From a virus, in the IMG/VR virus record IMGVR_UViG_3300037339_000275, positions 1 to 49,402 of that record: a stretch of DNA of 49,402 nt. One strand, written 5' to 3'. A program made the translations under genes and the position numbers. The notes beneath the pieces are model-generated. The model was given only the letters and a program-made list of their open reading frames with translations, made no database searches and was not told the DNA's origin. This document shows positions 17,548 through 38,961 of the stretch, one piece after another (position 1 is the stretch's first letter; every line of letters begins with the position of its first letter).

Positions 17548-20500
17548 TGGGCTACCTCAGTCGGTCTGAGCCACCACTCCGACCCAGTTTCCTCGGTTAT
17601 TTTACGCTCGAATCGGCGAAGATACCCGGGATTCATTGCCTCTTGTAACTCGTACATGAAGAGGTAATCGATAGCGGTTTTGGTGTAGAACAGGTTGTTG
17701 TATGGAATCTGCTGTACGGCCAGCCTCAAAGCCTTGGCTCGGGGATCCTGACCTGAAACTACAGCGGCGTAAAGTGAAGAGAGATCCTCGATCTTTCCTA
17801 CAGTTGGACCCCCCAAGGAAGCGATGAATCCCTTACCGAAACGGGCTTGCGTTCCAAGTAAGTAGTCACCGTACATTCCGAGCGAGCCACCCTGCATCAT
17901 GGCATCGCGCCACGTACGCGGATCATCAGGGGGACGTGGCTTCCGACCGCGCAGGAGCTCTTTCAGAGTCATCGACATGTAGCCAAAGGCAGTCGTAGCT
18001 ACGAGCAACAATGCGAGCCCGCGAGCCTCAGACATGCCGAAGCGTCCCCCGCGGCCGAGGTCGTAACCGTAGAACTCGCGCATGAAGCCGCGCTGTATGA
18101 CCCCAATAGGAAACGTCTTGAACTGCCAGAACAACCGAAGCGCTTCGCCCATCGAAGTGCCAGCCTGAGTCCCACGACGGGTAAAGGCCAGCGCACGAGC
18201 GTCAGGCGTGATCACTGCCGAGTCGACCTCATCAGCGTAGTAGCGCTGGAATCGATCAGCCAGGCCATTTCGAGTATCATCGAGCACTCGCTCTACCTGG
18301 CCACCTAGCTTGTCGAGGTCTCCCGAGGTATCCTCTCGACGAGCAGTCATACGAGTCTCGAGCTCTCCGATATACTCTTTCAACTCAGCATAGCGTTCCT
18401 TCCAAGCCTCGTTGAAAGTATCGTAGTGCTCCTGAATGTCCTCCCTCGTAGCTGCTTCAACTCCTTCGAGTTCATCCTCAGCTCTGGCAGTCAGATCAGA
18501 GCGGAGTTCCTCAACTGAGATTGTGGCTTCATCCATCTTCCTCTTGAACTCAGCTTTCACCCTGAGGAACTCACGACGAGCCTGGGCGTGCTTGGCCCTT
18601 AAGGTCCCCTCGAGATTGCCGGCTTCGCGTATGGCCCGCTTGCCGTAACCAGGAGCACGCTCGAAGTCGAAGGAGTTCTTCCACCAGTCGCGCAGGTTCT
18701 CGAGCTCGATAGCCAGCTCACCGAGCTGCTTGTTGAGAACCACTACCTTCTCAACCATGCGGTCGAAGGCCTGCTGCTGAGCGGCCTCAGCTCTCTTCTC
18801 AGTATCAGTGAGAACCTTCTCGATGCGACCAGTGAGGAGCTCGCGACGCGACAGAGCCCTCTTCTGCCGACGCTCAGCCAAAGCTAGCAGCTTCTCATTC
18901 GCCTTCTCGAGCTTCGCAGTGAAGTGAGCATGACGCTTGTCGATCCACGCCTGCTCGCGCAGATCAGCTTTCATTCGCTTCTGGACTCGCTCGAGTAGCC
19001 CGCGCTGTACGGCTTCGATTCGAGCGGCTGCCATCTCGGTGAACTCAGTCAGAGGAAGTTCACGAATTTTGTCAGGAGTGATGAACTCCATGTTCTGATC
19101 ATCGATATCAATACCACGACGACCGAGCTCCCACTCTCGCTCAGTGATATCGAACCTTATCAGGGAGCGACGGGTCTGATCGCTGAGCTCAGTCCATCCC
19201 TTCTTCGATTGCTGACCAAGGAAGGCTCCCATCGCTTCGAGAGCTCCCCGACGCTGCTCTTCAGTCCAGGGACCCAGCAGGTTGTATTTGAAGAACGTGT
19301 TGGTGGCTGCGTGCATCTTCCCTGGAATGGTCTCATCAGGGGACCAGCGAGACACCATGTTCCTCAGAGCCACATCGTTGAAATGGCCTAGTGCAGAGAC
19401 GATGGCTCGACGCTCAGCTGAGCCAGCCCCCACCAGAATTCGCTTCAGGGGATCGAACAATCCTTTGGCTAATTGACCCAGGAAAGAAGCTCCCTGATAC
19501 CTGAGAAGCGACGCCCTGATCGGAACGTCTCCGATGGCCTGCAGGGTTGCGGCACCGAGGCCGCCCATTACGTTGACGACTCGAATTCCAGCGCCTACGT
19601 TGGCCAGCTGGGCGGAGGCTACGGTTCTCGTGTAACCGGTGAGTTCGCGGAGAGCGTTCTCAAACTTCTCGCCTGCGCGGCTGCGAGAATCGAATGCACG
19701 AAGAGCCTTAGGGTCGGTGCGGGAAAGTTGGGTCCTGATGGCTTTGACGATTGCGTCGAGGTTGTACTCGGGGTTCGTTCCGAAGACTTGCATGAGGCCG
19801 GTGGCTTCTGCTCGGCGGTGGATGTCATTGACGTATGCCTCGATAAGAGAGCCGTGTCCGAACTCCTCGTTGTACTTGAACCAGTCGTCGGCACTCTTGA
19901 AGTAGAATACGCGATCAGCTGACAGGCGCTTGGCCAGGTTTCGCGGACCTTTGAATGCGCCCATACGCTCGGCTGAAGCATCAGCAGGGGAGCGAGGCCG
20001 AACACCAGTAGTGATGTTGTTGTATGCCTCAGTCAACCAGGTGTCGAGATCCTCAGGGACACCATCCGGGAACATTCGATCAAGATCAAAGCGCGCCAGT
20101 GCGGCTTCCTTCCACTTGGCCAGTCCCCCTGACAGAATCTTGTTGGGATCGTTGGTCTGACGGACGATGTAGTTCTTTGCCTTGGGAATCCAGGCGCCGT
20201 GGCGATTCGCCTCGATTCTGGCGACCTCACGCCATTTTTCAAGGATCTTAGCGACCTTTACGGCGCTAGACGGTAATCGCGCAAGGGTATCCTCGTCGCC
20301 GATGAACCAAAGCGCCTGAGAGATCTCTGCGTCCATCTCGCGGCGCCTCACGACGTCAAACAGTCCCGCTTGTTCGAGTTCGCGCTGCATCCCACCAATG
20401 TAGCGACGGAAGTTCGCTGACTGAGCAGCTCCAGCTGACCGGCCCCTTGAACCCCTACGAGACTTGGGAGAACCGTACAGCAAAGCCAGTACGCCCTCGA

Positions 20501-20774
20501 CCAGATCATCGCCCCAGTTGGCATTGAGGTAATCGACAGCCTCCAATCGGATCCGCCGATTGATAGCTGCGTTGCGACGTTCGATCTTGATGGCAGCACG
20601 AATTCGACCAGCAACCTCTTCGCCAGCCTTCTTCGCGGCGTCCTCTGAGGTTAATCCCTTAGCGATCCATGAGGCTTGTTCAGCCTTCATCATGTCGATG
20701 ACTTCGCTCAGCTCCTTCGCTGACATGTCAGGGATGGATTGGCGAACCAGATCAAGGCAGGGATTCTCAGCCAT
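17544..20774 (-). CDS. Large internal virion / DNA ejection protein
   Basis: 1,076 residues. The position just before the fibre and after the gp15-like gene corresponds to T7 gp16. The N-terminus (MSAKELSEVIDMMKAEQAS) is helical. About 560-830 is a very long charged coiled coil rich in Glu, Arg, Lys and Ala. The C-terminal part has hydrophobic stretches (RGLALLLVATTAFGYMSM) that could enter the membrane. I see no lytic transglycosylase motif of the kind found at the N-terminus of T7 gp16. It probably builds part of the ejection conduit across the envelope. Confidence 0.65.
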   Translation of the reverse strand: MAENPCLDLVRQSIPDMSAKELSEVIDMMKAEQASWIAKGLTSEDAAKKAGEEVAGRIRAAIKIERRNAAINRRIRLEAVDYLNANWGDDLVEGVLALLYGSPKSRRGSRGRSAGAAQSANFRRYIGGMQRELEQAGLFDVVRRREMDAEISQALWFIGDEDTLARLPSSAVKVAKILEKWREVARIEANRHGAWIPKAKNYIVRQTNDPNKILSGGLAKWKEAALARFDLDRMFPDGVPEDLDTWLTEAYNNITTGVRPRSPADASAERMGAFKGPRNLAKRLSADRVFYFKSADDWFKYNEEFGHGSLIEAYVNDIHRRAEATGLMQVFGTNPEYNLDAIVKAIRTQLSRTDPKALRAFDSRSRAGEKFENALRELTGYTRTVASAQLANVGAGIRVVNVMGGLGAATLQAIGDVPIRASLLRYQGASFLGQLAKGLFDPLKRILVGAGSAERRAIVSALGHFNDVALRNMVSRWSPDETIPGKMHAATNTFFKYNLLGPWTEEQRRGALEAMGAFLGQQSKKGWTELSDQTRRSLIRFDITEREWELGRRGIDIDDQNMEFITPDKIRELPLTEFTEMAAARIEAVQRGLLERVQKRMKADLREQAWIDKRHAHFTAKLEKANEKLLALAERRQKRALSRRELLTGRIEKVLTDTEKRAEAAQQQAFDRMVEKVVVLNKQLGELAIELENLRDWWKNSFDFERAPGYGKRAIREAGNLEGTLRAKHAQARREFLRVKAEFKRKMDEATISVEELRSDLTARAEDELEGVEAATREDIQEHYDTFNEAWKERYAELKEYIGELETRMTARREDTSGDLDKLGGQVERVLDDTRNGLADRFQRYYADEVDSAVITPDARALAFTRRGTQAGTSMGEALRLFWQFKTFPIGVIQRGFMREFYGYDLGRGGRFGMSEARGLALLLVATTAFGYMSMTLKELLRGRKPRPPDDPRTWRDAMMQGGSLGMYGDYLLGTQARFGKGFIASLGGPTVGKIEDLSSLYAAVVSGQDPRAKALRLAVQQIPYNNLFYTKTAIDYLFMYELQEAMNPGYLRRFERKITEETGSEWWLRPTEVAQ

Positions 20775-23668
20775 TACGAACCTCGAGTCAGACAGGTGGT
20801 AGCGATCTCAGAAGCCTTGGCCCAGCGCTCAGCTTCAGTGGACGCTTCCTCGAGTTCCACTATATCAGGATCGAGCTCCTTTTCGTCGGGAGTCAAACGC
20901 TTCTCGGCTTCCTTCAGATTCGACTCGGCATTGGCGAGATCCTCGTCAAGTGCCTCGGCTGGGTCTTCAGGGGATTCCTTCAGAGTAACCTCAGCCTGCT
21001 CGATAGCGAGCTGTGGCTCTGGGTCTGGCTGCGCTTTTCCTTCGACCCATGGCTGATTCTGAAGCTCTGCCGGTAACTCGTCAGCTCTAGCTTGTGGAGT
21101 GTCTTGCTTAAGTCTTAATGGAAAACTGGTCTGAAGGCTCTCCATTCCACGAGACATGAGAGGAAGCTGATTGTAGTCAGCATTACCTAGGGCTGATTGA
21201 AGTCTGGAATAGAAATCGAGATACTGTTCAGGGGTTGCTGTGTTAAGTTGTCGAGTAGCTTTCTTCAAATAATTAACCAAAGTCGGTTGATCAGAAAATG
21301 TTGCATAGGCCCGCTTCCTCAGTGAAGCGAGTTCCTTCTTCAACCTGGTTGGAGAAAGCGATTCCAAATACTCACGCTCATTAGCAATACTAAACTCATT
21401 AAACATATCTGAGGCTTTCTTTGGAAGACCAGCTATCCGTGCTACTTCATCCATGGAATCAAGAAGCTGAACTGGATCGAAGTCCTCGGTGGCCTCCGAC
21501 AGAGCCTCACGGATGTAGGCTTCTTGATCGCCACCATTGAACCTCGGATCAGCTGAGTCAGTAAATTCTCCCTTCACTCGAGCAGCTTCTCCTCTCCAAC
21601 TATCAATGATCTCAGCCTCAGACAAATCTGAATTACCCCGAGCAATTCTGATCGCATCCTCATCAGACAGAGCTTCTATCGCTCGTTCTATTGGATGATC
21701 GAAATCAAGAACATTAGAGCCATCATAAGATGCTCTAACAATCATAGCTCTAGCCCAGAGAGCTTTTCGAGCAGCCTGTGCCATCATGACCGGATGTGCC
21801 CCCACCGCTGGAGCAAGCATAGTAGCTACAGGTATTGTTCGAGGAGCTGGGGGCATCAACGTGGTGGCAGCAACAGCGCTGGCTCCCTGAAGAAACGTGC
21901 GACGCGAGATGCCACGAGTCTCTGGTGGAGTCACGTCGATTGGCTCCCCTAGAACAGCTTGACCAACAGAGACGCGGGTTCTCTCGATGTGCTCGGTTGG
22001 ATCAAGAAGCATGCTGGCCTCTTCAAGATCTGAACCGAACTTGTCGTAGTCTCCTTCTCGAATATCTCTGAATCCCATCCTCTTATGGAAAGCTTCAGAC
22101 CCTGGACGAGCTAAGAGACTCACTCCAACCCCACGTTCCTTTAATCTCTTCAGGAGCTTTCGAGCCAAAGCAGCTCCTGCTCCGACTTGAATAGAGCCTA
22201 TGTAATTGGCTTGTGTAAGCTTTTCTCCGAGTTCAATCCCACTAGCCGCAGCTACGATTTCGTTCCGCTCATTCAAAACTACAAACCTTTGTCCCTCCTC
22301 GTCGTCAAGGGCTCTCTGAAGGTAGTCAATGGCTGTAGAATCATCACCAACTTGGTACTTCTCATCTTCATTAGCCAGACGTCCAATTCTGTTTCGCTCA
22401 GTCTTTACGAACTCAGGATCAAGTTCATCAATAGAGGCCACCTTAAAGGTAGGCGTAGCTCCCCCAGGTTTCTGACCCCTCAAGTAAGCTGACAGCTCCT
22501 CAGGAGCCAATGCTGTATCCAACAGAGCGACATCTTCACCCTTCAAGTAAGCCAACAGTTCTGCAGGAGTCAATGCTGTATCGGACAGAGACTCCATGAA
22601 ATGCTCAGGTATATCAGAGTCCTTGAGCTTCAGAGCTCGCATGACCATTGAGTGGATGGCCGCATCAGCATCCCAGAGATAGACATCATGTGTCTTGGTT
22701 ATCATAACTCGAAGCTTGCGTACATCTCTACCGGCCCAGCGCAGCAATTCGTCCTTAGATGGGTTCTTCAATACTTCAATCTTTCGAGGACCTTGACCTT
22801 TTACAAATTGAGTCTCATCCAATACCGCTGGTCGATTGATAGGCTCTACCTCAAGAGTCAGACGAGCACTGTCACCAGGAAAGGTTAGGATCTCGTCAGT
22901 GATGCTGTCAGCATCGAAGCTCTCAGGAGGTGTCTCTTCAAAGGGGAGTGGTGGTGGCTCTTCAACTTCCTTGGCGAATCTGAACTTCATCGAGGAGGCC
23001 AGATCACCGAATCCGCCGATGGTTGGGTGCAGTGCGGCACCGAAGACGGTCCCGAATGTAGCGTTCATGAGCGAATCAACCGCATCGTAATCATACTGCT
23101 CGGCGGTGCGGGAGCCATATATGAACGGCTCTACCACAGCAGCACCGACAGTACCTTCGATAGCACCATACTTCGCTCGGACACCCATGCGACCAAGAGC
23201 TCCACTGGCTCCCTTCAGGCCAGCTGCGTATCGAGCTTGACCGACGATGGGAACGAATGCCAAACCGACGTTGGTAGGATCAACCAGAGTGGTACCAAGA
23301 GCTACGCCGAGCCTTGCCGTCCACTCAGCCACGCCACCTCGTGCCCTTGCGAAAGTCTCAGCCCGGCGCAGCTCAACTCTTTTCCTCGACATCAACGTCT
23401 TCAACGCTTCGTGAGAAATTCCTTCGTTGTCGATCTCCAACTGTCCCTGAAGACCGCCCAGATTGAGGATGTCTTCGGCTTGCTCCTTCTTGAGCTTCGG
23501 TCCAGTATTCTTCGCTTTCGTCAGCTCAGCCCAACGATAGACGGCGGCAATCGGATTCTCTTCAAACGACTGAGCGAACTGCTCTTCAAGGACACGACCA
23601 CTTCGAACGGTCAAAGCATCAGCCGTGAACGGACTACCCTCAGCCTTGTCTTCGTAGATGTAAGGCAT
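20774..23668 (-). CDS. Ejection-type virion protein with GNAT-like domain and Tat-type motif
   Basis: 964 residues. The N-terminal 270 residues are Gly/Ala-rich and amphipathic (VGLAFVPIVGQARYAAGL), as in internal virion proteins. Residues 355-405 hold two copies of a TAL-x-P-x-EL-x-AYL motif. Residues about 440-545 look like a GNAT acetyltransferase: VGAGAALARKLLKRLKERG for the acyl-CoA loop and SEAFHKRMGFRDI for the last strand. At about 580 lies SRRTFLQGASAVAAT, a textbook Tat signal followed by a hydrophobic stretch, buried inside the protein. The C-terminus is acidic. The stretch at 21.1-22.9 kb is visibly AT-richer than its flanks. The virion role is inferred from position. Confidence 0.65.
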   Translation of the reverse strand: MPYIYEDKAEGSPFTADALTVRSGRVLEEQFAQSFEENPIAAVYRWAELTKAKNTGPKLKKEQAEDILNLGGLQGQLEIDNEGISHEALKTLMSRKRVELRRAETFARARGGVAEWTARLGVALGTTLVDPTNVGLAFVPIVGQARYAAGLKGASGALGRMGVRAKYGAIEGTVGAAVVEPFIYGSRTAEQYDYDAVDSLMNATFGTVFGAALHPTIGGFGDLASSMKFRFAKEVEEPPPLPFEETPPESFDADSITDEILTFPGDSARLTLEVEPINRPAVLDETQFVKGQGPRKIEVLKNPSKDELLRWAGRDVRKLRVMITKTHDVYLWDADAAIHSMVMRALKLKDSDIPEHFMESLSDTALTPAELLAYLKGEDVALLDTALAPEELSAYLRGQKPGGATPTFKVASIDELDPEFVKTERNRIGRLANEDEKYQVGDDSTAIDYLQRALDDEEGQRFVVLNERNEIVAAASGIELGEKLTQANYIGSIQVGAGAALARKLLKRLKERGVGVSLLARPGSEAFHKRMGFRDIREGDYDKFGSDLEEASMLLDPTEHIERTRVSVGQAVLGEPIDVTPPETRGISRRTFLQGASAVAATTLMPPAPRTIPVATMLAPAVGAHPVMMAQAARKALWARAMIVRASYDGSNVLDFDHPIERAIEALSDEDAIRIARGNSDLSEAEIIDSWRGEAARVKGEFTDSADPRFNGGDQEAYIREALSEATEDFDPVQLLDSMDEVARIAGLPKKASDMFNEFSIANEREYLESLSPTRLKKELASLRKRAYATFSDQPTLVNYLKKATRQLNTATPEQYLDFYSRLQSALGNADYNQLPLMSRGMESLQTSFPLRLKQDTPQARADELPAELQNQPWVEGKAQPDPEPQLAIEQAEVTLKESPEDPAEALDEDLANAESNLKEAEKRLTPDEKELDPDIVELEEASTEAERWAKASEIATTCLTRGS

Positions 23669-25749
23669 CAGCGTCCTTTGTAGAGTCCAGCCTCTTTCGA
23701 TTTCTGATCTTCTTCAGCTGCTCGCTGAAGTCGACGTTCACCGATTCTCAGCAGATCCGCCCACGAATACTGGATCTTGATCGGTCGACTGACTGAGCCT
23801 CGGGCTACTGGTGCTCCATCAATGTAGAGCTGAACTCCAGTGCCAAGCGGACTGGTAACCCAGTAACCATGGTCCTGAACGTAGTCATTGTAGATTTCAA
23901 GTCGATCCTCGTCGGCTTGTCCGAAGCCGAACTGACCCAACAGCGTGTCAGGGGGGAGTTCAAGATTCTCGATGATGTCCATGGAAGCGAATTCCAACGT
24001 GTCCTGATCCAACCCTGATGGGTAGCGGAATGGCACGTTGTGAATATCCAGGAGGTTATCGTTGTTCTTCATGGCTTCATAGGCTATCTGAGCAGAGGCC
24101 TGCATGCTAGCTCCAGTGCGCATGTGATGCAGGGTCAATCGCAAACCTGAGTCGTAGACAGCGTTGCTAGTCCGTACTCCGCCAGTGTCGGCCGGAAAGC
24201 TTCTGAGGAACGTCTCGAACTTGTTCTTTACAGCCGTCTCGAGTTCTTCCCAAGTGGAGCCGTTCGGAATGTAACCTCTCAGCTCTGAGGTCTTGAGATT
24301 CGCCATGCCCGCCAGGGCAATTCCAGCCTGAGGTGGAATCCCCGAGGCGATGACGGCAACGGTGTCGGGGAGCTTCGAAGCGAGCTGTCCCATGATCCGC
24401 GGCCAACTAGTACCCCAACGCTGAGCCTCTCGATTCACAGCATAATAGAGATTCTCGTTGCTCTTCGGATTCGAGACCTGAGCCGCAAGAGTGTTGGCAT
24501 ATGAGTCAGGAATGATGTTGGAGTTGAAGATTCCCAAGCGAACCGACTCGGAGTCAACCAGTCGGATGTATTCCTCCCGAGCTTCGGCGTTGTTGGGATC
24601 GCTCATCAGTTCGTTCCAAGCTTTGGTCACAGGCTCGTTCCGAGAGATCAGGTACTGAGCTCCATCCTTTTCACGCTCAACCATAATTCGAGCAGCTGAG
24701 GTCTCGACGATGGATTGACGTTCTGCGGCCGAGTAGGCTCCCTCGACTTGAGTGGGAGCATAGGTCGCGCCGATAGTACCAAGCTGACCGGCGGTCATCT
24801 CGTGGAGAGCTGCTACGTCTCGACTGACTGCCTGGAATCCTTTGGCATCCTGATACATCCGACCACCAACCACGGATCCGTAGGTGGCCACGTAGACCTG
24901 CTCAGGGGGGATAGATTCAATCACGACTCCGTTGCGAGAGGCGGCTTCCATATCAGCCTGCTGAATTCTCAGAGTCTCCTTCATCACACCGTCGTCGATC
25001 TTGAACATCTTCTCGATCTCAGTCGCGTGCTCGCCGCTCAGCTGATCCTTGACGGCTTCGTAGTAACCCCGAGCCATGGCTTTCTCTTCGACTGACATCA
25101 TACGTTCGACAACGTTGAAGTGTGTCAAAGAGATAGTCTTCTTCGCAGCCGCGTCGGTCTGCTCAGCACCCCAACCCTCTCGACCGGCCTGAGTGTTGAC
25201 GATTCGAAGCTGGCGTTGAATCTGACCCCGAATTGCTCCTGGGTCGTTGTAGAGATTGGTAGCCGTGCTGATGGAGTCCTGGAGTCCTGAGATCAGTTCC
25301 TGGTCTGAGAACGCTTCGCGCTGAGCAGATTCATGGCGATTCAGCGTCAAGTCCAACTGGACGCGCTGAGAGCCTCTGAGTTTCCAAAAGGCGAGCTGCT
25401 GACGACGAGTCGTCAACGTAGCGGCGATGCGATGTCCTTCCTTGTCGAATTCAGGGAGAACGACATCCGGGAGACCGAATGCATTCTTTCCCTTTCTATT
25501 CAGCACTCCGTTCTTCGGATGGAACAACGTGTCCTGAGTCCAGGAGTTCAGTTGAGTCTCAGCCTGAGTGATCGCAATGTCGTCAGCCTCAGCGATCTCA
25601 CGTTGAGCAATCTGATTGAAGACCTGACCGACATCGCCGAGCCCTCGAGCGGTTCCAGTACCAAAAGCCTCTAACGGCTTCTGAGCCAGATTGACGTCAG
25701 GCAGGCGCTCAGTGTTAAGACTGGACTGATACTGGGGGACTTGTGGCAT
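23668..25749 (-). CDS. Internal virion protein, T7 gp15-like by position
   Basis: 693 residues. The N-terminus (LPDVNLAQKPLEAFGTGTAR) is followed by a long helical protein with repeated Gln, Ala and Glu (FNQIAQREIAEADDIAITQ), as in gp15-type ejection proteins. No enzymatic motif was found. The order gp12-, gp13-, gp14-like and then this gene follows T7, which supports the assignment better than the sequence does. It would be injected with the DNA and form part of the trans-envelope channel. Confidence 0.65.
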   Translation of the reverse strand: MPQVPQYQSSLNTERLPDVNLAQKPLEAFGTGTARGLGDVGQVFNQIAQREIAEADDIAITQAETQLNSWTQDTLFHPKNGVLNRKGKNAFGLPDVVLPEFDKEGHRIAATLTTRRQQLAFWKLRGSQRVQLDLTLNRHESAQREAFSDQELISGLQDSISTATNLYNDPGAIRGQIQRQLRIVNTQAGREGWGAEQTDAAAKKTISLTHFNVVERMMSVEEKAMARGYYEAVKDQLSGEHATEIEKMFKIDDGVMKETLRIQQADMEAASRNGVVIESIPPEQVYVATYGSVVGGRMYQDAKGFQAVSRDVAALHEMTAGQLGTIGATYAPTQVEGAYSAAERQSIVETSAARIMVEREKDGAQYLISRNEPVTKAWNELMSDPNNAEAREEYIRLVDSESVRLGIFNSNIIPDSYANTLAAQVSNPKSNENLYYAVNREAQRWGTSWPRIMGQLASKLPDTVAVIASGIPPQAGIALAGMANLKTSELRGYIPNGSTWEELETAVKNKFETFLRSFPADTGGVRTSNAVYDSGLRLTLHHMRTGASMQASAQIAYEAMKNNDNLLDIHNVPFRYPSGLDQDTLEFASMDIIENLELPPDTLLGQFGFGQADEDRLEIYNDYVQDHGYWVTSPLGTGVQLYIDGAPVARGSVSRPIKIQYSWADLLRIGERRLQRAAEEDQKSKEAGLYKGR

Positions 25750-25752
25750 AAG

Positions 25753-26298
25753 TTAAACCTTATACATTCCGTAAGCTGATGCCCCAGTCGTCAGGATGGT
25801 TCCAAGCGCGTTGGACTTCCCTGACTTCTTGGCGTACTTGCCGGCCTTTCGAAGTTGCTGTGCTCGACTTCGGTAACCGAAGGCTTCACGAGCAGCGTTG
25901 TTCCGAGCGGTCAACATGTCGAGCTCGCCTTCTCGCTCGCTATCCATGGCAACATCGAATGGAGAACCGCCAGCCGAGATATCAATCCCAGACCCGCCAA
26001 ATCCGGCTCGCTGAGCCCCCAGCACGCGACGGATCTGAGCTCGGATCTTGTCCTGTTGCTCGACTCCTCGAGACACAGCGTCCTTGGCTTTTTCGTCTTC
26101 GTACTTGGCCTCTTGCTTGTTGAGCTTGTTCTGAAACTTGCCTGCGTCGTACTGAGCCTTGGCAGTCATAGCTCCAGCAGCTATGGTCATACCAATGGCT
26201 ACCATCTGGGAAGTCGTCAGCGCAGCCGTAGTTGCTACAGCAGCCGTACCGGCTCCAGCTGCGGCTGCGCCTGCTGCGGCGGGTGCTAAGAAAGCCAT
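25753..26298 (-). CDS. Internal virion protein, T7 gp14-like
   Basis: 181 residues. The Ala/Gly-rich hydrophobic N-terminus (LTTSQMVAIGMTIAAGAMTA) is followed by a charged helix (FQNKLNKQEAKYEDEKAKD), then LGAQRAGFGGSGIDISAGGS and GELDMLTARNNAAREAFGYR. These are common features of the gp14-like internal virion proteins of podoviruses. It probably inserts in the outer membrane during ejection. It overlaps the gp13-like gene by 13 bases. Confidence 0.78.
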   Translation of the reverse strand: MAFLAPAAAGAAAAGAGTAAVATTAALTTSQMVAIGMTIAAGAMTAKAQYDAGKFQNKLNKQEAKYEDEKAKDAVSRGVEQQDKIRAQIRRVLGAQRAGFGGSGIDISAGGSPFDVAMDSEREGELDMLTARNNAAREAFGYRSRAQQLRKAGKYAKKSGKSNALGTILTTGASAYGMYKV

Positions 26299-26759
26299 TT
26301 TCTCTCCATCAATTTCATGAGGGGAACCACTCGACCAGTTGGTAATGCTTCAGTACCAACTGGAGAGAATCCCATGTAATCCATCCAACGCCGAGCCTGA
26401 TCGAACTCAGGGTCGAGAATAGCAAATACCTCTTCATGTCCAATGGTCAGCAACTCGAAGACTGGAGCGCAGACTCGAATGAAGAGTACTGGGTTCTTAC
26501 GAAGCTCAGGAGTTCCAAGCATCCATACGAAGAGCCGGCAATCCATCGCAGATTTTTGATAGGACCCTAGCAAGCAAATTGCCTTTCCGTTCATAAACCC
26601 TGTGAAGATCCGATAATCAGAGTAAAGAAACTCTCTCAGAGTCAGCTCAGGGTCAGTCTTGAAACCCGTCCGAAGGATGCTGAGGTCTTGCTCACTGGCC
26701 AGAGCCAGGACCGCTTCAAGGTCAGCCGGAACCGTTCGTTGTATTCTAAGACGATCCAC
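26286..26759 (-). CDS. T7 gp13-like protein with GNAT fold
   Basis: 157 residues. The layout (RTVPADLEAVLALASEQDLS at the start, FTGFMNGKAICLLGSYQ in the middle, RRWMDYMGFSPVG near the end) matches the gp13/DUF2833 family, whose fold resembles N-acetyltransferases. T7 gp13 is needed for virion assembly although no enzyme activity is established. It lies between the tail tubular B and gp14-like genes, the same place as in T7. Confidence 0.75.
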   Translation of the reverse strand: MDRLRIQRTVPADLEAVLALASEQDLSILRTGFKTDPELTLREFLYSDYRIFTGFMNGKAICLLGSYQKSAMDCRLFVWMLGTPELRKNPVLFIRVCAPVFELLTIGHEEVFAILDPEFDQARRWMDYMGFSPVGTEALPTGRVVPLMKLMERKWLS

Positions 26760-29718: not shown

Positions 29719-30363
29719 CTACCTTATGTTGATCGAGGGCGAATCAGCTTCGCGATCCTGCTGGCCTTCGGCCATGGCCTGAGCCTGATTGCCGAGTTTG
29801 AATCGACCGTAGTTCTCGAAGGCGGCTCCGATGAATTCCTTGTCGACCTGCAGCTGTGGACCCGATTCAGCCGCGAGCTTCCAGGCAAGGGAGTCGATGA
29901 AGCCCTGATCGAAGGCATCGACGTTGGTCACCCGAGCCGTGTAGTAAGCATAAGCCAAGTCGAGATCCGTCAAGATGAGCCGTGCAGACTGATCTTCTTT
30001 GATTGCGACTTGATAGGGATACCGAGGAACGATGAGAGCTTGTTCAGTGAACAAACTGTCGTAGAAGGTTTTGGACAGGATCCGAGCTCCACTTTCGTCA
30101 ACGATCTGACGAATGGCCAGACAGTCGTTGGGATAGGTGTAGACGTATGTCCAACCGATGAACGTCTCGGTGGCCTCAAGCGAGAGCGCTTTCACACGCT
30201 TAGCAAAGGGCCAGGGAAAGTCTCGAAGAACGTAGTCTCGAACAATCGGATAGAATCGATTCATAACCCGAGCCGTCTTGTTGGTCTCGGTTTCCGACTC
30301 AATCTCGAAACTGATTCCCAGTCGAGACAATGCCAAGTTGTAGATGTCAACAACGCTCGGCAT
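29719..30363 (-). CDS. Tail tubular protein A (T7 gp11-like adaptor)
   Basis: 214 residues. Typical family blocks are IYNLALSRLGISFEI, RFYPIVRDYVLRDFPWPFAK and TYVYTYPNDCLAIRQIV. The protein forms the ring between portal and nozzle. AAGGAG precedes the ATG at 30363. It abuts the nozzle gene, as in T7. Confidence 0.92.
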   Translation of the reverse strand: MPSVVDIYNLALSRLGISFEIESETETNKTARVMNRFYPIVRDYVLRDFPWPFAKRVKALSLEATETFIGWTYVYTYPNDCLAIRQIVDESGARILSKTFYDSLFTEQALIVPRYPYQVAIKEDQSARLILTDLDLAYAYYTARVTNVDAFDQGFIDSLAWKLAAESGPQLQVDKEFIGAAFENYGRFKLGNQAQAMAEGQQDREADSPSINIR

Positions 30364-30398: not shown

Positions 30399-32228
30399 TT
30401 ATCTGCGGTGTCGACGACGATGACGGATCATCCATTCGTGGTCAGTGCCGCCAGGAGGTATAACTATCTCTGTACGGTAATAGAACACGGAGGTGTAGTC
30501 GTTGCGCCTTGCATCCGGCTCGATTGCTTGAGAACCAAACTGTTGCTTCCAGAAATACCACGGCTGACCCGGACCGGCGGTTGGAGTGGCTCTACCAAAC
30601 AACAGCCGAGCATTGTGATCATCTCTGACAGCATCAGCCTCGATCCACTGGTCGGCCTCAGCTCTTGGCCAGAGATACCAGGGTTGACCGACAACAACAG
30701 CTGGGTATTGGCCCCTCAGAGGCGTTAGATCGATTGGACGAGTAGCGACTATCGGTTCGATATCGTCTAGACGCGCTGAACGCCTCCAGAGCAGCCACGG
30801 CTGACCTACAGTCTGATAACCGACGCGATAGCGATGCAATCCATCGTGAATCGACCGACGGAATTCAGGTTCGGCTTCCAGAGGAGACTTGGTCTGCGGC
30901 CACAATACGAAGAACGGCTGTGATGGCTGAGCCACCACAGGCGTCGCCCGACCGAACATGGCGCGGTAGTGATCGACGCGCTGCGCGTCCCGGTCCTCCC
31001 CGACCAGCACCAGTTGAGTGAACGGCAGCAGGAAGTGACCGCCCTGCGCCTGGCGACCGAAGAACAGCCGCCGGTAGTGATCGGTGCGGGTGGCGTCCGG
31101 CTCGACATCCTGCCAAGCCTCGGCGGTTGGCCAGAGATACCACGGCTGTCCGGCCCCGGCGGCTGCGGGATACTGGCCGCGATAGGGCGTCAGATCGACC
31201 GGCTTGGCCTGCTGCTGCCCCTCGGCGTCGATCCCCGTCTGCCGGCGCGGCCATGTGGTCCAAGGCTGGCCTACGGTCTGGTAGCCGGTTCGATACAGGT
31301 GCAGGAGGGTGTGGTCGCCGCGGACTGCATCCGGCTCGATCCACTGCTCGGCCTTGGCCTTTGGCCACAGGTACCAGGGCTGGCCGACGACCGCCGGATA
31401 CTGCCCCCGGAACGGGGTGAGATCGACCGCCCGGTAGATGGCCTGCTGCTCGAGGTCATCCTGACGCCTCTGGCGGCCCCACAGCGCCCACGGCTGCCCG
31501 ACCGTCTGGTAGCCCACCCGGTAGCGGTGCAGCCGGGTGTGATCGACCCGCGCATCGACGAGTTCGGTGTCCTGCCCGGCCTTCGCCTTCGGGAACCGAT
31601 AGAGATTCGGTTGGCCGACCGTCTGGAACCCGACTCGATACAGGTGCAGGTCGCTCTTGCGCGCCGGCGTGAACTCCTCGACCGCCTGATCGGAGCGCGC
31701 CCGCTTCCACGTCAGCCACGGCTGGCCGACCTGCTGCACCACCCCGCCGCGACCGAAGAACAGGCGCGAGTAGTGGTCTATGCGCCGCGCGTCCTCCGTG
31801 GCCCCGAACGGGATGATGCGAGTGACCGGCAACAGGAAATGGCCGCTGGCCTGCGGAGACCGGAAGCGATGCAGCTTCGAGTGATCGACGGTGGCGAACG
31901 CTGCCTGCTCGAACAGCAGCAGGCCCGCCACCAACGCCCCCACCTTCTGCATGAATGGCAGGCGTTGTGGCTGCGCCGCAGCGGCAACTTGTGGACGACC
32001 GAAGAACAGCCGGTTGTGGTGCTGGACTCGTTGCGCATCCTCGTCGCCCTGCACGAGAACAAGCTGCGGGGCCGGAGCATTCTGTGAACCGAGACCGTCG
32101 TAGCCGAGTGCGTCGGCACCTATTGGGAGCGGCGGATTCGGGTCGTGGAAGGTCTGCGTCGGGTGCCACTGCAAGGCACCTTGCGACTTAAATCTCAGTC
32201 CTCGCAGGATCCTGGTGAGGTTCCGCAC
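30399..32228 (-). CDS. Virion-region protein built of GQPW-anchored repeats
   Basis: 609 residues. After a 160-residue N-terminal part (LRGLRFKSQGALQWHPTQTF) with a hydrophobic stretch near 97-111, the protein is made of about ten degenerate units of about 38 residues. The unit is roughly GQPWYLWPKAKA, then an acidic E-P-D-A, then DHTLLHLYR-x-GYQT, or in a variant DLTPFRGQYPAVV. Trp, Tyr, Arg and Gln are very frequent. The tail is Arg/His-rich (MIRHRRRHRR). It sits between the decoration/adhesin genes and the tail adaptor, which implies a virion part. No known family is recognised. GC content jumps inside the gene near 30950. Confidence 0.7.
   Translation of the reverse strand: MRNLTRILRGLRFKSQGALQWHPTQTFHDPNPPLPIGADALGYDGLGSQNAPAPQLVLVQGDEDAQRVQHHNRLFFGRPQVAAAAQPQRLPFMQKVGALVAGLLLFEQAAFATVDHSKLHRFRSPQASGHFLLPVTRIIPFGATEDARRIDHYSRLFFGRGGVVQQVGQPWLTWKRARSDQAVEEFTPARKSDLHLYRVGFQTVGQPNLYRFPKAKAGQDTELVDARVDHTRLHRYRVGYQTVGQPWALWGRQRRQDDLEQQAIYRAVDLTPFRGQYPAVVGQPWYLWPKAKAEQWIEPDAVRGDHTLLHLYRTGYQTVGQPWTTWPRRQTGIDAEGQQQAKPVDLTPYRGQYPAAAGAGQPWYLWPTAEAWQDVEPDATRTDHYRRLFFGRQAQGGHFLLPFTQLVLVGEDRDAQRVDHYRAMFGRATPVVAQPSQPFFVLWPQTKSPLEAEPEFRRSIHDGLHRYRVGYQTVGQPWLLWRRSARLDDIEPIVATRPIDLTPLRGQYPAVVVGQPWYLWPRAEADQWIEADAVRDDHNARLLFGRATPTAGPGQPWYFWKQQFGSQAIEPDARRNDYTSVFYYRTEIVIPPGGTDHEWMIRHRRRHRR
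30458..31730 (-). repeat. Coding repeat array, about ten units of about 114 bp
   Basis: Protein-level tandem repeats anchored on GQPW occur at about residues 167, 204, 244, 282, 320, 360, 437, 476, 514 and 554 of the gene above. Two subtypes alternate: one ending in LYRxGYQTV, the other in DLTPxRGQYPA. Nucleotide identity between units is only partial, so the duplication is old or under diversifying drift. Confidence 0.75.
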
Positions 32229-32234
32229 GGCGGA

Positions 32235-33389
32235 TTAGCCATGCGCCAGCCGGAACGAACCCGAGTAGTTGGTGGCGGTCGTCGCGTTCCTGATGACTTC
32301 GATCAGGGCCAGCGCCGCACCATCGAACACCCGCACCAGATTGAAGGCGGTGTTGATGCCATCGACCTCGCAGATAATGTTCGCGAGCGGGCAGGCCATG
32401 AACGCAATCGGGTGGCCGATCACGAAGTTGATGACACCCGTCCCAACCAATGCCGAGCAGCGCATCTGCGCCAGATCCATCGCGCCAGTGTCACCGGTAG
32501 CCAGTGGTGCAAACCACTGCTGATTGGCAACTGCGTGGTCGAAGGTCCGCACCGCAGCAGCCGAACGTCCGGTCAGCACCGGCATGATGGAGTTGTCGGT
32601 TCCCGCCTGATTGCGGTAGAGACACTCGTTGGAGCCACCAGCCACGCCCCAGTTGTGCGTGGTCCCCGCCAGCACGGTTGTGCCGACTTCGACGAAGATG
32701 AAGTTGCCGCCCGCGTAGTCAGCAGCAGACGGCGTGCTCGACTGATAGCGGGTCGGCACGCCAGTCACCGCCTCGTTCGCCGTCGAGTTCATGGTCTTGT
32801 TGACTTGGAAGATCCGGTCGTACAACAGCAGGGTGTTCTGCGCGACAGAGGACAACGCTCCACCCCACACGAAATGCCGGGTGTCGGTCGAGACGTTGTC
32901 GAGATTCGGGAACGCGCCGGTCGTGGCCTGTGTCAGTGCATCGCCACCCGGAGCGTTGGAGGCGTTCGCGCCCGCCGCCGGAGTGGCGCCGAGTCCCCAT
33001 AGAGAACTGGAGACGTTGACGACGCCCGTCGGTCCCGCCTTGTTGAAGTGGAACTCGCGCAGCTTGCCGGTGCTTGCTTCTGCGATCAGGTCCGAGAAGG
33101 ACGCGAACCCGGCCATGCCGAGTTGATAGCGATGACGCATGATGCTTTGCGCCAGCCGCTTCTTCTTGAGTTCCCTGCGGATGGAGTTTTCAAGTCGCTC
33201 CCGCGAAGAGATCTCGTAGCCGGCGTCGATGGCCCCGATGAAGTCGCCGCCCTTGGCCGCGAACACTGCGCCAGGAACGCCTTGCACCGCGATCGGTGGG
33301 CCGTACCAGTTGAGCATGGAGCGAGAAACCCGCTCGACCTGCTCGACGCCGAGCCACCGTTCAAGACGCTGCGAATGTGTGTGCAACAT
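32235..33389 (-). CDS. Putative virion structural protein (decoration/adhesin block)
   Basis: 384 residues. The N-terminal 120 residues are helical (VEQVERVSRSMLNWYGPP, RELKKKRLAQSIMRHRYQLG). The C-terminal 260 are beta-rich with many Ala, Gly, Thr and Asn (TGVVNVSSSLWGLGATPAAG, LLLYDRIFQVNKTMNSTA). Such head-plus-barrel layouts suit surface fibres or head spikes. It lies in the late transcript between two virion genes, with short spacers. The family is not recognised with certainty. Confidence 0.6.
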   Translation of the reverse strand: MLHTHSQRLERWLGVEQVERVSRSMLNWYGPPIAVQGVPGAVFAAKGGDFIGAIDAGYEISSRERLENSIRRELKKKRLAQSIMRHRYQLGMAGFASFSDLIAEASTGKLREFHFNKAGPTGVVNVSSSLWGLGATPAAGANASNAPGGDALTQATTGAFPNLDNVSTDTRHFVWGGALSSVAQNTLLLYDRIFQVNKTMNSTANEAVTGVPTRYQSSTPSAADYAGGNFIFVEVGTTVLAGTTHNWGVAGGSNECLYRNQAGTDNSIMPVLTGRSAAAVRTFDHAVANQQWFAPLATGDTGAMDLAQMRCSALVGTGVINFVIGHPIAFMACPLANIICEVDGINTAFNLVRVFDGAALALIEVIRNATTATNYSGSFRLAHG

Positions 33390-33400
33390 GGTCGTGTCCT

Positions 33401-33994
33401 CTATACCTGAAAGTGTCGCATAACTCTGGTGAAAAGCCTCTGGATAACCGGCTGCATGGTGTAGGTGAACTTCGCCCTGCCGCTTGCGCCGTCGCCGCCG
33501 TTGCCAGGTGCTTCTTCACCAGCACCACCACCACCGGGAGCGTTGCCGATCCCGAGGATGCGTTGCAGCCCGCCGTTCGGCGACGAACCGCCGCTGTTGA
33601 TGGTGCCAGCATTGCCGGTCGGGTTGATGTCCCCACCAGTAGCGGTGCCACCAGCGCCGCCAGCTCCGGTAGTGCCTCCTGCTCCGCCATTGGCCGAGTT
33701 GGCCGAGGTTCCAGTGATCGTTGTGTTGCCGCCAGCAGCGCCATCTCCGTCAGCGCCGGTCTTGCCGACTCCGCCAGCACCGACCGAATAACTCCACGAC
33801 TCGGTGCCGAGGCCCGACAATTCGACGGTCTCGCGTGAGTGTCCGCCACCGCCACCGCCGCCAGGCAAAGAGCCGGTGAGTTTCGCGCCACCACCGCCAC
33901 CGGGCCATATCTCGATGACCACGCGGATCGAGTAGAGCGGCGCATTCTCGGTGCCGGAGCCAGTGTCGTATTGCCTGACGAGGAATGCCATCAC
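33401..33994 (-). CDS. Glycine-rich adhesin-like protein
   Basis: 197 residues. Long Gly-rich runs (GGGGGGGHSRETVELSGLG, then NGGAGGTTGAGGAGGTATGG) resemble the polyglycine-II type domains of phage adhesins and glycine-rich tail proteins. A short beta-rich start (LVRQYDTGSGTENAPLYSIR) and an Arg-rich end flank them. It overlaps the gene upstream by four bases. Receptor binding is inferred from composition. Confidence 0.65.
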   Translation of the reverse strand: MMAFLVRQYDTGSGTENAPLYSIRVVIEIWPGGGGGAKLTGSLPGGGGGGGHSRETVELSGLGTESWSYSVGAGGVGKTGADGDGAAGGNTTITGTSANSANGGAGGTTGAGGAGGTATGGDINPTGNAGTINSGGSSPNGGLQRILGIGNAPGGGGAGEEAPGNGGDGASGRAKFTYTMQPVIQRLFTRVMRHFQV

Positions 33995-34686
33995 GCCGCC
34001 AAGAAGATGCGCCGAGGCATCGGCATCGGTGCCATTGGTGTGCCGCCAGCAGCCGGATTCAATGCCACCGCGAAGGCGTGTTTATCGATGGTGGTTATAG
34101 TCATGGTAGCGTCCATATTTCCAGTCGCGCCAGAACCCGACCATGTAAGGCTGGCGAACTCGCGCACGCAGCGAGAATCGGCATTCAGCCAGAAATCGAC
34201 ATCTTCAACAAAGGTACCCGGATTTGTCGGCGGTGTAGCACTCTGAGCCGTGGTGGTGATGTATCCACCGGCAAATATGATTGCCGAATTTATAGCGGCG
34301 ACCGACATTGATGCGGCTCTGAGGATTGTATCGCTGGTTGCGTAGGCAGTGTTCGACACAACATCAATCGGATCAGCCGTGTCAAATCCGCCACGATAAG
34401 ACACCATAGTTGCAGCGGCGCGGCCCGCAACAGCGTAACCCCATGTGTAATCGGCTGGTTCACTACCGGTCGCCAGCTTCCAATAGAACGCCCAATTCCT
34501 CGAAAGACTTGTTAAGGACCCCAGTTCGGCCCATCCAGACGGAACGCTGTTCGGCCCGTCTGGATTATTTTTGAGAAAGCACAGCATCAAATCGTTTGCG
34601 GCAGTTCCGGTTGGAACTGGCACGACAACAGACGCGGAGGACAACGCGTCGTAATGAGCAGCGGCTACGAATGCGAGAGCCATCAC
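33991..34686 (-). CDS. Beta-sandwich virion protein with PMPMPR tail
   Basis: 231 residues. The central block WAFYWKLATGSEPADYTWGY and the later DTADPIDVVSN fit a beta-sandwich type found in many metagenomic phage structural proteins. The C-terminus reads PMAPMPMPRRIFLAA, closely like the end of the neighbouring protein at 34683. That shared tail suggests a common docking peptide. Context makes it a head-decoration or fibre component. Confidence 0.6.
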   Translation of the reverse strand: MMALAFVAAAHYDALSSASVVVPVPTGTAANDLMLCFLKNNPDGPNSVPSGWAELGSLTSLSRNWAFYWKLATGSEPADYTWGYAVAGRAAATMVSYRGGFDTADPIDVVSNTAYATSDTILRAASMSVAAINSAIIFAGGYITTTAQSATPPTNPGTFVEDVDFWLNADSRCVREFASLTWSGSGATGNMDATMTITTIDKHAFAVALNPAAGGTPMAPMPMPRRIFLAA

Positions 34687-35216
34687 ATCACCACGATGCG
34701 GTTGCGCGGCATCGGCATTGGTCCCCTGATTGGACCGCCCGGAGCGAACGGGTCAGTGTCGGTGAGCCATACATTCACGCGAGCGGTGACGACGTGCGTT
34801 GAGTTAGCCCCCCATGGATCGGTCGGCGAGGTGTAACTCTGCCCGTCCGGCGTATGCTCAAGGCCATCAATAACATCGCACTGCACCACCGAGTTGAAGC
34901 TGTCGGAGACGAGGCCAAGATAATAGTCGGCAGTGCCAATCGGGACATTACAACTCCACGAGACGATACCACCCCCCGCCGGTGCCGCCTTGCCAGAGGT
35001 GGCGAAATGTAGCGTCGCCGCCGCGAGTCCTCCGCCTTCGTCTAAATAAACCAGCGCCTTGATGTTGTCACCAGCAACTGTGTCAGCGTGCATACGGACA
35101 TGGATGCCGAGCGCGGTCGCGTTCCCGACAAAAGGAAACAAGCTGATGATCTGCCGATCGCCTGAGTTGGGGAAGCTATCGCCACCAGCAGAGTCATCGC
35201 CGAGGATCGTCGCCAC
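34683..35216 (-). CDS. Beta-rich virion protein with PMPMPR tail
   Basis: 177 residues. The sequence is beta-rich (RQIISLFPFVGNATALGIHV, YYLGLVSDSFNSVVQCDV) and ends GPIRGPMPMPRNRIVVM. The last 15 residues match the tail of the downstream neighbour although the bodies differ. Start and stop overlap the adjacent genes by one to four bases, as throughout this block. A carbohydrate-binding or head-decoration role is plausible; no family is recognised. Confidence 0.6.
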   Translation of the reverse strand: MATILGDDSAGGDSFPNSGDRQIISLFPFVGNATALGIHVRMHADTVAGDNIKALVYLDEGGGLAAATLHFATSGKAAPAGGGIVSWSCNVPIGTADYYLGLVSDSFNSVVQCDVIDGLEHTPDGQSYTSPTDPWGANSTHVVTARVNVWLTDTDPFAPGGPIRGPMPMPRNRIVVM

Positions 35217-35737
35217 TACTGGATCACCTTGCTCACTGGATTGGTCTGCACGCTTTCAATGCCAGCTACATCGTAGGCCGTCATCGTGAAGTACCACGTT
35301 CCGGCTGTCAGGTTGTCGAGCACCTGCGAGGTCGCCGCCGGGTTCGCCACCTCGACCAGGTATCGCAGATCGGTCAGAGCGTTCCCGTAGCGGATGCGGT
35401 AGCCAGCGAGGTTGGTGAGCGAACTGCCGTCGCTGCGCGTGGTCGGCGCGGTCCAGTTTAGAGTCGCCGCACCAGTCGTCGGCGGTATGTACGGATTCGC
35501 TGGTGGGCGCGGGATCGAGATCGACACGCGCCAGCGTCCGCCCTGCACCCAACGCGGCTGGCCGTCACCGATCGAGCGATTCAGGCAGGCGGTGTAGGCC
35601 GAGTCGAGTCGCTGGTGCGTCGTGAAGGTCGAGCAAGCCGCGTTCTCACAGCAGGCGAAGTCGTATGAGGTTTCACGGGTCGAAGTGACCTGGGCGAGCG
35701 CCGGGAAGGCCAACAGGAACAGCAGCAGTACGCGCAT
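35216..35737 (-). CDS. Exported Cys-rich protein with fibronectin type III domain
   Basis: 173 residues from ATG 35737, which has GGAG upstream. Residues 1-15 (MRVLLLFLLAFPALA) form a Sec signal peptide. Residues 20-60 hold five cysteines (DFACCENAACSTF, YTACLNRS). Residues 90-173 are a fibronectin III fold: ATLNWTAPTTRSDGSSL, then GYRIRYG and GTWYFTMTAYDVAG. A signal peptide on a gene in the head-decoration block is odd; the product may act at the host envelope and not in the virion. Confidence 0.72.
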   Translation of the reverse strand: MRVLLLFLLAFPALAQVTSTRETSYDFACCENAACSTFTTHQRLDSAYTACLNRSIGDGQPRWVQGGRWRVSISIPRPPANPYIPPTTGAATLNWTAPTTRSDGSSLTNLAGYRIRYGNALTDLRYLVEVANPAATSQVLDNLTAGTWYFTMTAYDVAGIESVQTNPVSKVIQ

Positions 35738-35753
35738 AGTGCTCTCCAAAGAA

Positions 35754-35814: not shown

Positions 35815-36288
35815 TCAGATCTCCTCGAAACAGACCGTGCTGCCGGCACTGTAGGCCTGACCGAGAGCAGCGACCAACTCGAGGCAGAGTCGACCGCCGC
35901 CCTGGATCGGCATCCGGGTATCGGGGGTGAAGATCAGCTCGAACGGCACAATGATCGAGGGCTCGTCCGACCAGCGCACATCGCCTACCGTGCCAGGCGT
36001 CGTCACCGTGCGCGTAGTCACGGTCGCTGCCGCTACCGTATTGCGTGGGTGCATACCTGCCGGCGTGACCGCAGCACCGCCGGTACCTGTGGTCGAGCGT
36101 TCCACCAGTCGCAGCCTGGCGCGAACGTCCTGGGCCACACCAGAAGTGATGGTCGGGATGAACGACAGCTTGATCCAGTGAACGATGACCGCGACTCCAG
36201 CCGCTGCCACCAGTTCCCAGATGTCCTGAGCCGCGTTGGTGATCGAGACGTTCTCGAACTGGGTTGTATACATCAAACCGTTTGCCAT
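35815..36288 (-). CDS. Putative head decoration protein
   Basis: 157 residues, beta-rich (MYTTQFENVSITNAAQDIWE, VIVHWIKLSFIPTITSG, VPFELIFTPDTRMPIQGGG). It resembles small virion surface proteins common in podoviral head blocks. It is the last gene before the internal terminator, so it is probably expressed at the high level of the capsid genes. Confidence 0.55.
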   Translation of the reverse strand: MANGLMYTTQFENVSITNAAQDIWELVAAAGVAVIVHWIKLSFIPTITSGVAQDVRARLRLVERSTTGTGGAAVTPAGMHPRNTVAAATVTTRTVTTPGTVGDVRWSDEPSIIVPFELIFTPDTRMPIQGGGRLCLELVAALGQAYSAGSTVCFEEI

Positions 36289-37478: not shown

Positions 37479-37952
37479 TTATGAGACGGTGAAGGCGTCA
37501 GCGTACTGGACGTACGAGTCAACCATCGCCAGCGGGATCAGGAACGCGGTGACGGTGATCGTCGGCGTGGTGCCGGTGACATCGTACCGAATCCCCATAA
37601 ACCGCTCGCTTTCGCCCAACACCGTCGGCGGGATCGGAATGTAGAACTTGAATCCCGCGATGAGCAGGTCCGCATCCTGAGCTGGCAAGACAGGTGTCCC
37701 AGACTCGAAGATTCGACGACCGATGATCTGACGTCCAGTGGTTTGCGCCGCGTCGGTCGCATACTCCACATCGAACGTATAATCTTCGTCGCCTGTCGTC
37801 TGGTCGGCAGCCACGTCGATCTGAAAGCAGACCGCCATGGGCTCGCCGTTGCCGAGACTCCGGTCGACCGAGAGGTCGATGACGTTGGTGCCCACAGCGT
37901 CGGCCGTGACCGCCTGGGCATCGGAGAAGAGGTTCTGTGCATCAATGAACAT
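37479..37952 (-). CDS. Bbp16-like capsid cement protein
   Basis: 157 residues. The start MFIDAQNLFSDAQAVTADAV is the signature of the Bbp16 cement protein family of BPP-1-like phages, and the later FKFYIPIPPTVLGESERFMG fits too. The protein stabilises the capsid from outside. It lies directly after the capsid gene, as in BPP-1 relatives. Confidence 0.85.
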   Translation of the reverse strand: MFIDAQNLFSDAQAVTADAVGTNVIDLSVDRSLGNGEPMAVCFQIDVAADQTTGDEDYTFDVEYATDAAQTTGRQIIGRRIFESGTPVLPAQDADLLIAGFKFYIPIPPTVLGESERFMGIRYDVTGTTPTITVTAFLIPLAMVDSYVQYADAFTVS

Positions 37953-37965
37953 GTTGGCTTGCTCC

Positions 37966-38961
37966 TTAGGCCACGGTGGCTTCGGTTTCGAGGAGCTGAT
38001 CGCACAGTCGGATGGGGATGCCGCGGAGCGACACCTTCCGATTGCCTTCCTCGTTGCCGACGGTGAGGTACAGGTTGGTCTTCGACATCGCCTGGATGTC
38101 CAGCATCTCCAGGATGGTCCGGTTCGCGTAGAACACCGGGCGTCCCAGGGACTGCGACGGGAGACGGTGGATCGCCTTCAGCATCTGCTTGATCAGATCG
38201 GCTGCCGAGGATTCCGTCACCAGGTTGGAGATGTCGATGTTGCAGATGCGGACCACGTAGCGCCAGTCGCGCACGACGAGCCCTGCCTTCCACTGCCAAT
38301 GGTCCTGGTATGCCCGCATGCGGGAGGTACCGATCCCCGTGGCATCCTGCACCGTGACCAGACCGAGATCCTCGTGGATCAGGCCCGCCTTGGATCCTTT
38401 CGGGAAGACCCCGAACACCGTGCTGGCGCCCCAGGCGACGAGCCAGATGCTCGAGTTGTCGGAGCCAGCGCCTCCCGCCCTGACCACGTTCTGGCCGGAC
38501 GTGCCGGTCGACGAGGCATAACGAGGAGCGAGTCCGGTGAATTCCTCGGGCGCAGTGCCAGAGTTGCCGTAGAATAGCGTTCCGGCGTACTCCTGGTTCA
38601 TCGCTTCAAGGAATGCCTGAGCCTCGGAGAGGCGGAAGGCGGCGGAATTGCCATTCAGCTCGCAGAGGTCCTTGTCGACCTCCGAGTAGGCCTCGAGCAT
38701 GCCGGCCTGTTCATCGACCTGCGCCGTGGTCGACTTGCTCGGCGAGACGCCGCGGTTCAGCAAGCGCCATGCCACGGTCGGCAGCGACGTGCGAAGAGTC
38801 ACGCGGTGACCGGTCGGGAGGTTGCCCTCCATGAAAAGCTGGTCCTGGATGATTTCGTTGGTCTGCGACAGCATCTCAACGATCATCGGCACCTGTCCAT
38901 CAGGATCCAAACGCTTCGCCCAGTCGGCAAGCGTGAGGACCGTTGCGCCAATGGTAGCCAT
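37966..38961 (-). CDS. Major capsid protein (Bbp17-like, HK97 fold)
   Basis: 331 residues, the usual length. Family blocks are TLADWAKRLDPDGQVPMIVE, LPTVAWRLLNRGVSPSKSTT and SEAQAFLEAMNQEYAGTLFYG. Position between scaffold and cement genes supports the call. AAGGAG precedes the ATG. It forms the shell through the HK97-type fold, which is inferred from the family. Confidence 0.9.
   Translation of the reverse strand: MATIGATVLTLADWAKRLDPDGQVPMIVEMLSQTNEIIQDQLFMEGNLPTGHRVTLRTSLPTVAWRLLNRGVSPSKSTTAQVDEQAGMLEAYSEVDKDLCELNGNSAAFRLSEAQAFLEAMNQEYAGTLFYGNSGTAPEEFTGLAPRYASSTGTSGQNVVRAGGAGSDNSSIWLVAWGASTVFGVFPKGSKAGLIHEDLGLVTVQDATGIGTSRMRAYQDHWQWKAGLVVRDWRYVVRICNIDISNLVTESSAADLIKQMLKAIHRLPSQSLGRPVFYANRTILEMLDIQAMSKTNLYLTVGNEEGNRKVSLRGIPIRLCDQLLETEATVA

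Follow-up and report, generated by a model that had tools for sequence, protein, structure and literature searches.

The 609-residue protein P0001, encoded in the head-tail block of an environmental virus, is, as judged from sequence comparisons, a chimera of an N-terminal segment linked to its neighbour P0002, a string of GQPW repeats associated with a second neighbour, P0007, and a basic C-terminal tail. Neither the repeat nor P0007 has a counterpart in the libraries searched, so that the repeat is a new family, albeit within a known kind, that of exchangeable phage decoration or adhesin cassettes; exchangeable accessory cassettes with tandem-repeat proteins are already known in tailed phages. 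Tentatively, with a probability of about 0.4, we propose that P0001 is a modular accessory protein of the virion surface, with its N-terminus seated on P0002 or at the site of P0002, its units docking on or spacing P0007, and its basic tail making a further contact.

The gene of P0001 and its surroundings

The window (the whole stretch of 49,402 nucleotides that was analysed) is all or most of a podovirus genome: besides the capsid gene, it has a portal gene (Head-tail_con, PF12236) and genes of tail tubular proteins A and B (phrog_394 and phrog_376, respectively). The earlier note had placed a 609-residue repeat protein in the virion region, at the junction with the tail genes, and this proved correct: the gene is on the minus strand, directly upstream of that of tail tubular protein A, and ends the block behind the major capsid gene (Table 1). 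The capsid, cement and tail tubular A and B genes follow each other in the same order as in the head-to-tail block of epsilon15 and BPP-1 (GP7 capsid, Bbp16 cement, gp10, tail tubular A and B). However, whereas in epsilon15 only gp9 and gp10 separate the cement gene from that of tail tubular protein A, the window has there a cassette of about ten genes, namely P0010, P0009, P0008, P0007, P0006, P0005, P0004, a Gly-rich open reading frame (ORF), P0002 and P0001. The GC content of the cassette is 56-64%, as compared to 50-53% in the tail tubular genes; since that of the capsid gene is also 63%, composition by itself is no mark of insertion.

P0001 contains no Cys and starts with GTG, a choice supported by a protein of the L013 virus, to which the N-terminus of P0001 can be aligned starting at about residue 1. 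A plus-strand ORF at 30969-32087 was rejected as the coding frame because the relatives and the codon-position pattern fit the minus frame. The differences between the units fall mainly on codon position 3 (e.g. 3/4/12 and 5/3/12 changes at the three positions over 22 codons), which shows the protein frame of P0001 to be under selection.

Several other features of the region deserve mention. P0008 is, by inspection, probably a coiled coil. The Gly-rich ORF of 197 residues (33401-33994, minus strand), which has 4 bases in common with the end of P0004, is more plausible as a real gene than ORF 33361-33945. Otherwise unrelated-looking cassette proteins of the window (33991-34686 and 34683-35216, minus strand) and of other contigs (L035 4859-5620, L031 1-360, L032 4859-5695, L030 1-348) share similar short C-terminal peptides (PMPMPRRIFLAA, PMPMPRNRIVVM, GPMYYPQKVFYPV, VPMYYQRKQFFEV, NMFYPRKVFFPV, SHPVFLAA), possibly a shared docking tail. 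Variable-body proteins of the neighbouring class (L013, L025, L030, L033, L055, L011) often have an acidic-hydrophobic C-terminus, such as DDDEDWLLLL, EDDENEVLLWLM or DDEEALLLLI. Elsewhere in the window, one reading frame (6918-9377, plus strand) combines uracil-DNA glycosylase (UDG), 3'-5' exonuclease and family A DNA polymerase domains and seems to encode an unusual UDG-polymerase fusion.

Table 1. Positions in the window of P0001, its parts and the genes discussed with it
Feature	Position	Strand	Basis or likeness
P0001, 609-residue GQPW-repeat protein, GTG start at 32228	30399-32228	minus	ORF, relatives
N-terminal segment of P0001, residues 1-45, ALQWHPTQTFHDPNPPLPI	32094-32228	minus	HMM of P0002-neighbour N-termini
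13 tandem units of ~38 residues, residues 73-571; strong ones, residues 155-571	30516-32012	minus	unit HMM
Basic C-terminal tail of P0001, residues 577-609, DYTSVFYYRTEIVIPPGGTDHEWMIRHRRRHRR	30402-30500	minus	like L024 C-terminus
P0002, 384 residues	32235-33389	minus	homologues in 12 other loci
P0007, 157 residues, predicted jelly-roll	35815-36288	minus	apparently co-inherited with the GQPW repeat
P0004, P0005, P0006 (FN3-like), further accessory-cassette genes	33991-35749	minus	
Tail tubular protein A, cassette boundary	29719-30363	minus	phrog_394; epsilon15 gp11
P0011, cement protein of Bbp16 type, on the head side of the block	37479-37952	minus	PF21190, E=3.7e-12
Major capsid protein GP7, epsilon15 type	37966-38961	minus	PF20911, E=1.7e-133 (Pfam)
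Tail-fibre gene with typical N-terminal adaptor	16261-17547		phrog_1640 type
Internal virion proteins	17544-26759		

The GQPW repeat and its relatives

The repeat of P0001 is real: the local score of one half of the protein against the other is 380, as compared to a mean of 38.6 for shuffled sequences (sd 5.9, max 63). The earlier note had described about ten units of some 38 residues that alternate in two subtypes. The unit length holds, with a spacing of 35-46 residues and an average of about 38; the number has to be raised to 13, as counted with the unit HMM, with units at residues 73, 119, 155, 194, 233, 270, 309, 346, 387, 422, 464, 501 and 541, the last 11 with i-Evalues below 1e-3. The alternation, in turn, is strict for three pairs only (233/270, 309/346 and 464/501), and at least three types of units can be distinguished, namely A (YRxGYQTVGQPW), B (LTPxRGQYPA) and C (LFFGR), plus a degenerate GHFLLP form. 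P0001 displays the tandem pattern LHxYRxGYQT..GQPWxLWP......E, and a comparison of 63 units, taken from all relatives, shows conservation of L-H-x-Y/F-R, of G-Q-P-W-x-L-W-P and of a Glu. Across the viruses, this Glu is present in all 51 units that reach its position, the Gln in 87%, the second Trp in 86% and the Gly in 84%.

That no described family has such a consensus, as the earlier note had put it, is borne out by searches with both sequences and profiles. Sequence searches with P0001 gave a best E-value of 0.15 in Pfam and 0.26 in PDB and no match in PHROGs; the repeat profile had no match in PDB. No relative of P0001 came up in single-protein searches of 50,697 phage records, IMG/VR and 72,556 plasmid records, or in a profile search of genome contigs with the repeat alignment; the first route tried, matching the repeat HMM to the relatives of tail tubular protein A (L001-L010), gave no match, and a literature search found no paper on repeats of the GQPW type. 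The 12-unit alignment was too diverse for the pattern search. Relatives were reached only via a two-unit alignment: profile searches of IMG/VR with the two-unit alignment led to seven loci, and a second alignment added two more. Hence, the repeat-bearing viruses found number only about nine (contigs L024-L030, L033 and L034), all with unannotated proteins, the best BLASTP E-value among the relatives of P0001 being 5e-58. The Pfam matches of these proteins are all below the curated cut-off, including GH67 for the L027 protein (E=4e-4), which was disregarded, and the one weak PHROGs match (E=0.005) is in the C-terminal stretch. The unit profile led to no characterised family, only to these relatives from uncultured viruses, with P0007 adjacent wherever the upstream DNA is present.

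The proteins of the nine contigs resemble P0001 in the 38-residue unit and the P0007 neighbour but have fewer units, 3-8 in intact genes as compared to 13. A single in-frame stop (1071-1073) divides the L029 repeat gene into two ORFs, both of which carry repeats (4 and 6 units); the split may be an error, decay or real. Most relatives differ from P0001 also at the C-terminal end, where a conserved ALYPFRPHDA block is followed by a different charged region. L024, in contrast, resembles the window in this respect: its C-terminus, EWIIRARRRRGR, is of the same type as the basic tail of P0001, EW(M/I)IR..RRR..R, and its repeat gene also directly precedes that of tail tubular protein A.

Linkage to P0007 and P0002

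Eight distinct contigs extend far enough upstream of the repeat gene (L024, L025/L036/L037, L026/L032, L027/L031, L028/L035, L030, L033 and L034), and all of them encode there, at a distance of 1-3 genes, a homologue of P0007 with 55-80% identity, L033 and L034 being nearly identical over their common stretch, so that the independent count is nearer seven; L029 was left out because the contig ends short of the upstream region. The gene order in L024 is P0007, a 561-residue protein with a weak tail-fibre-assembly match, the repeat gene and tail tubular protein A; in the window, P0007 is also upstream within the cassette, with at least five reading frames between it and P0001. The viruses with this pair have different capsid families, namely phrog_1328 (L033, L036), phrog_1357 (L030, L031), phrog_9953 (L029) and PF20911 (window); therefore, the pair seems to move as a unit, and a simple descent of the genomes as wholes is disfavoured by the differing capsid genes. 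In addition, the similarities of P0007 and of the repeat protein are correlated (Mantel r=0.80, p<0.001, n=11; with the eight clear repeats only, r=0.72, p=0.04), although the test does not remove the effect of shared ancestry in full.

An IMG/VR scan with the P0007 alignment yielded further homologues. Those with 56-62% identity (L044, L045, L046, L048) adjoin strongly diverged, partial or absent repeats, and those with 42% (L049-L054) adjoin a large protein in which another short motif, KDLPNPITR, is repeated. In L049, L051 and L054, two tandem P0007-like genes are followed by the KDLPNPITR-repeat protein of ~860-890 residues, an arrangement that looks analogous to P0007/GQPW, with another motif.

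As for P0007 itself, no match at threshold was found in phage records or PHROGs, and none in genome contigs by a profile search with its alignment. The AlphaFold2 model, built from 16 rows, is all beta, with pLDDT 91.8 and pTM 0.86. Among predicted small phage proteins, Foldseek finds matches to this model with E-values as low as 2e-10, and in PDB it finds none below E=0.001; the best solved structures, with weak matches (E >0.001, low TM-scores), are mostly viral jelly-roll capsid proteins. A jelly-roll is thus predicted for P0007 with high confidence; the protein would share the all-beta fold with viral single jelly-roll proteins but differs from them in matching neither a PHROG at threshold nor, by sequence, a solved structure.

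The N-terminus of P0001 has a different affiliation. The P0002 gene is immediately upstream of that of P0001, with 6 bases between them. Homologues of P0002 are encoded in 12 other loci (11 from IMG/VR and one GenBank phage), and the GQPW repeat was found in none of the 12. In 8 of the 11 distinct loci (L011, L013, L014, L017, L018, L020, L022 and L023, with L018 and L019 taken as one), the gene just downstream opens with an N-terminal segment around QW..(HDPNPP) in common with P0001, followed by an unrelated body that lacks GQPW; in L017 and L018, other sequence intervenes between the P0002 homologue and this gene. The bodies consist, for instance, of LNLEPGTYTLTG tandem repeats in L017 (12229-12762) and of Ala-rich tandem repeats in L013 (5132-5872). 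An HMM of these N-termini, built without P0001, detects residues 1-45 of P0001 among 11,104 reading frames with E=2.8e-6, the next non-member being at E=0.35; no match to this N-terminus was found in the GQPW-repeat relatives. Since the first 45 residues match the neighbours of P0002 independently of the repeat, P0001 is chimeric.

Possible roles of the repeat protein

The sequences show the modular make-up of P0001, its linkage to P0007, the correlated divergence of the two and selection on the units. It is the position of the gene that points to P0001 as a structural protein of the virion; its presence in virions, its surface location and its docking with P0007 are what we infer. The cassette would be an exchangeable decoration or adhesin cassette inserted, in an epsilon15-like podovirus, behind the cement-protein genes and before those of the tail tube. 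The 45-residue N-terminal segment of P0001 probably attaches to P0002 or to the seat of P0002, whereas the string of thirteen units would be extended, or fold only on a partner, with each unit most likely docking on, or spacing out, copies of the P0007 jelly-roll, and the basic tail would make a further contact. The AlphaFold2 model of a four-unit fragment (residues 225-386) has no strands, with pLDDT 47.4 and pTM 0.13. An extended chain that becomes ordered on a partner would agree with this model, although low pLDDT from a shallow, 18-row alignment is no proof of disorder. It seems unlikely that P0001 is, more specifically, a scaffoldin-like string in which each unit binds one P0007, so that many copies are held per anchoring site and the valency changes by gain or loss of repeats.

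The same model bears on the idea of a solenoid or a series of beta-hairpins, which had been suggested in the earlier note and is not supported by a prediction of such low confidence and without strands. It is doubtful that the repeats are a self-folding stalk of this kind in a receptor-binding fibre, with the units setting its length and the aromatics binding host glycans. A stalk would agree with the variation in unit number from 3 to 13, with the additional N-terminal domain fused to the repeats in the L029 and L048 relatives, with the tail-fibre-assembly match next to the repeat gene of L024 and with the aromatic-rich consensus (W/R/Y-rich units). However, the conserved N-terminal adaptor of T7-type tail fibres (phrog_1640 type) was not found in P0001 and sits in the tail-fibre gene that the window already has, and a stalk leaves the strict linkage to P0007 unexplained.

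This linkage might also arise if P0001 and P0007 were independent in function and stayed together only through a common host group to which both are suited, as could be argued from the mosaic nature of such cassettes and from the P0007 homologues without a GQPW-type neighbour in more distant viruses (L046, L055, L056); the 8/8 linkage across several capsid types and the correlated divergence make this improbable. Finally, an internal or assembly protein, that is, an Arg- and aromatic-rich string that binds DNA or guides the joining of capsid and tail and needs no surface location, would suit the composition of P0001 (R 10.5%, net charge +17, RHRRRHRR tail) and its gene immediately before the tail tube genes, but is quite unlikely. 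Positive charge is not conserved among the repeat proteins (+5 in L024, -2 to -17 in the other relatives), so that DNA binding, envisaged in the earlier note, is improbable as their general function; moreover, the window has recognisable internal virion proteins at another place, and the cassettes of the relatives are at different genome positions.

Unnamed genes between the head and tail blocks abound in environmental phage genomes. Taken together, these data resolve one such gene into recognisable exchangeable parts, namely an N-terminal segment tied to P0002 and a repeat tied to P0007, the latter of which appears to have been exchanged among viruses whose capsid proteins are unrelated. The GQPW peptide and P0007 are a directly testable pair: should the units and P0007 bind, they would constitute a repeat-based multivalent display system of which we know of no earlier description. 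The profiles of the repeat and of P0007 provide two seeds for annotating uncultured phages.
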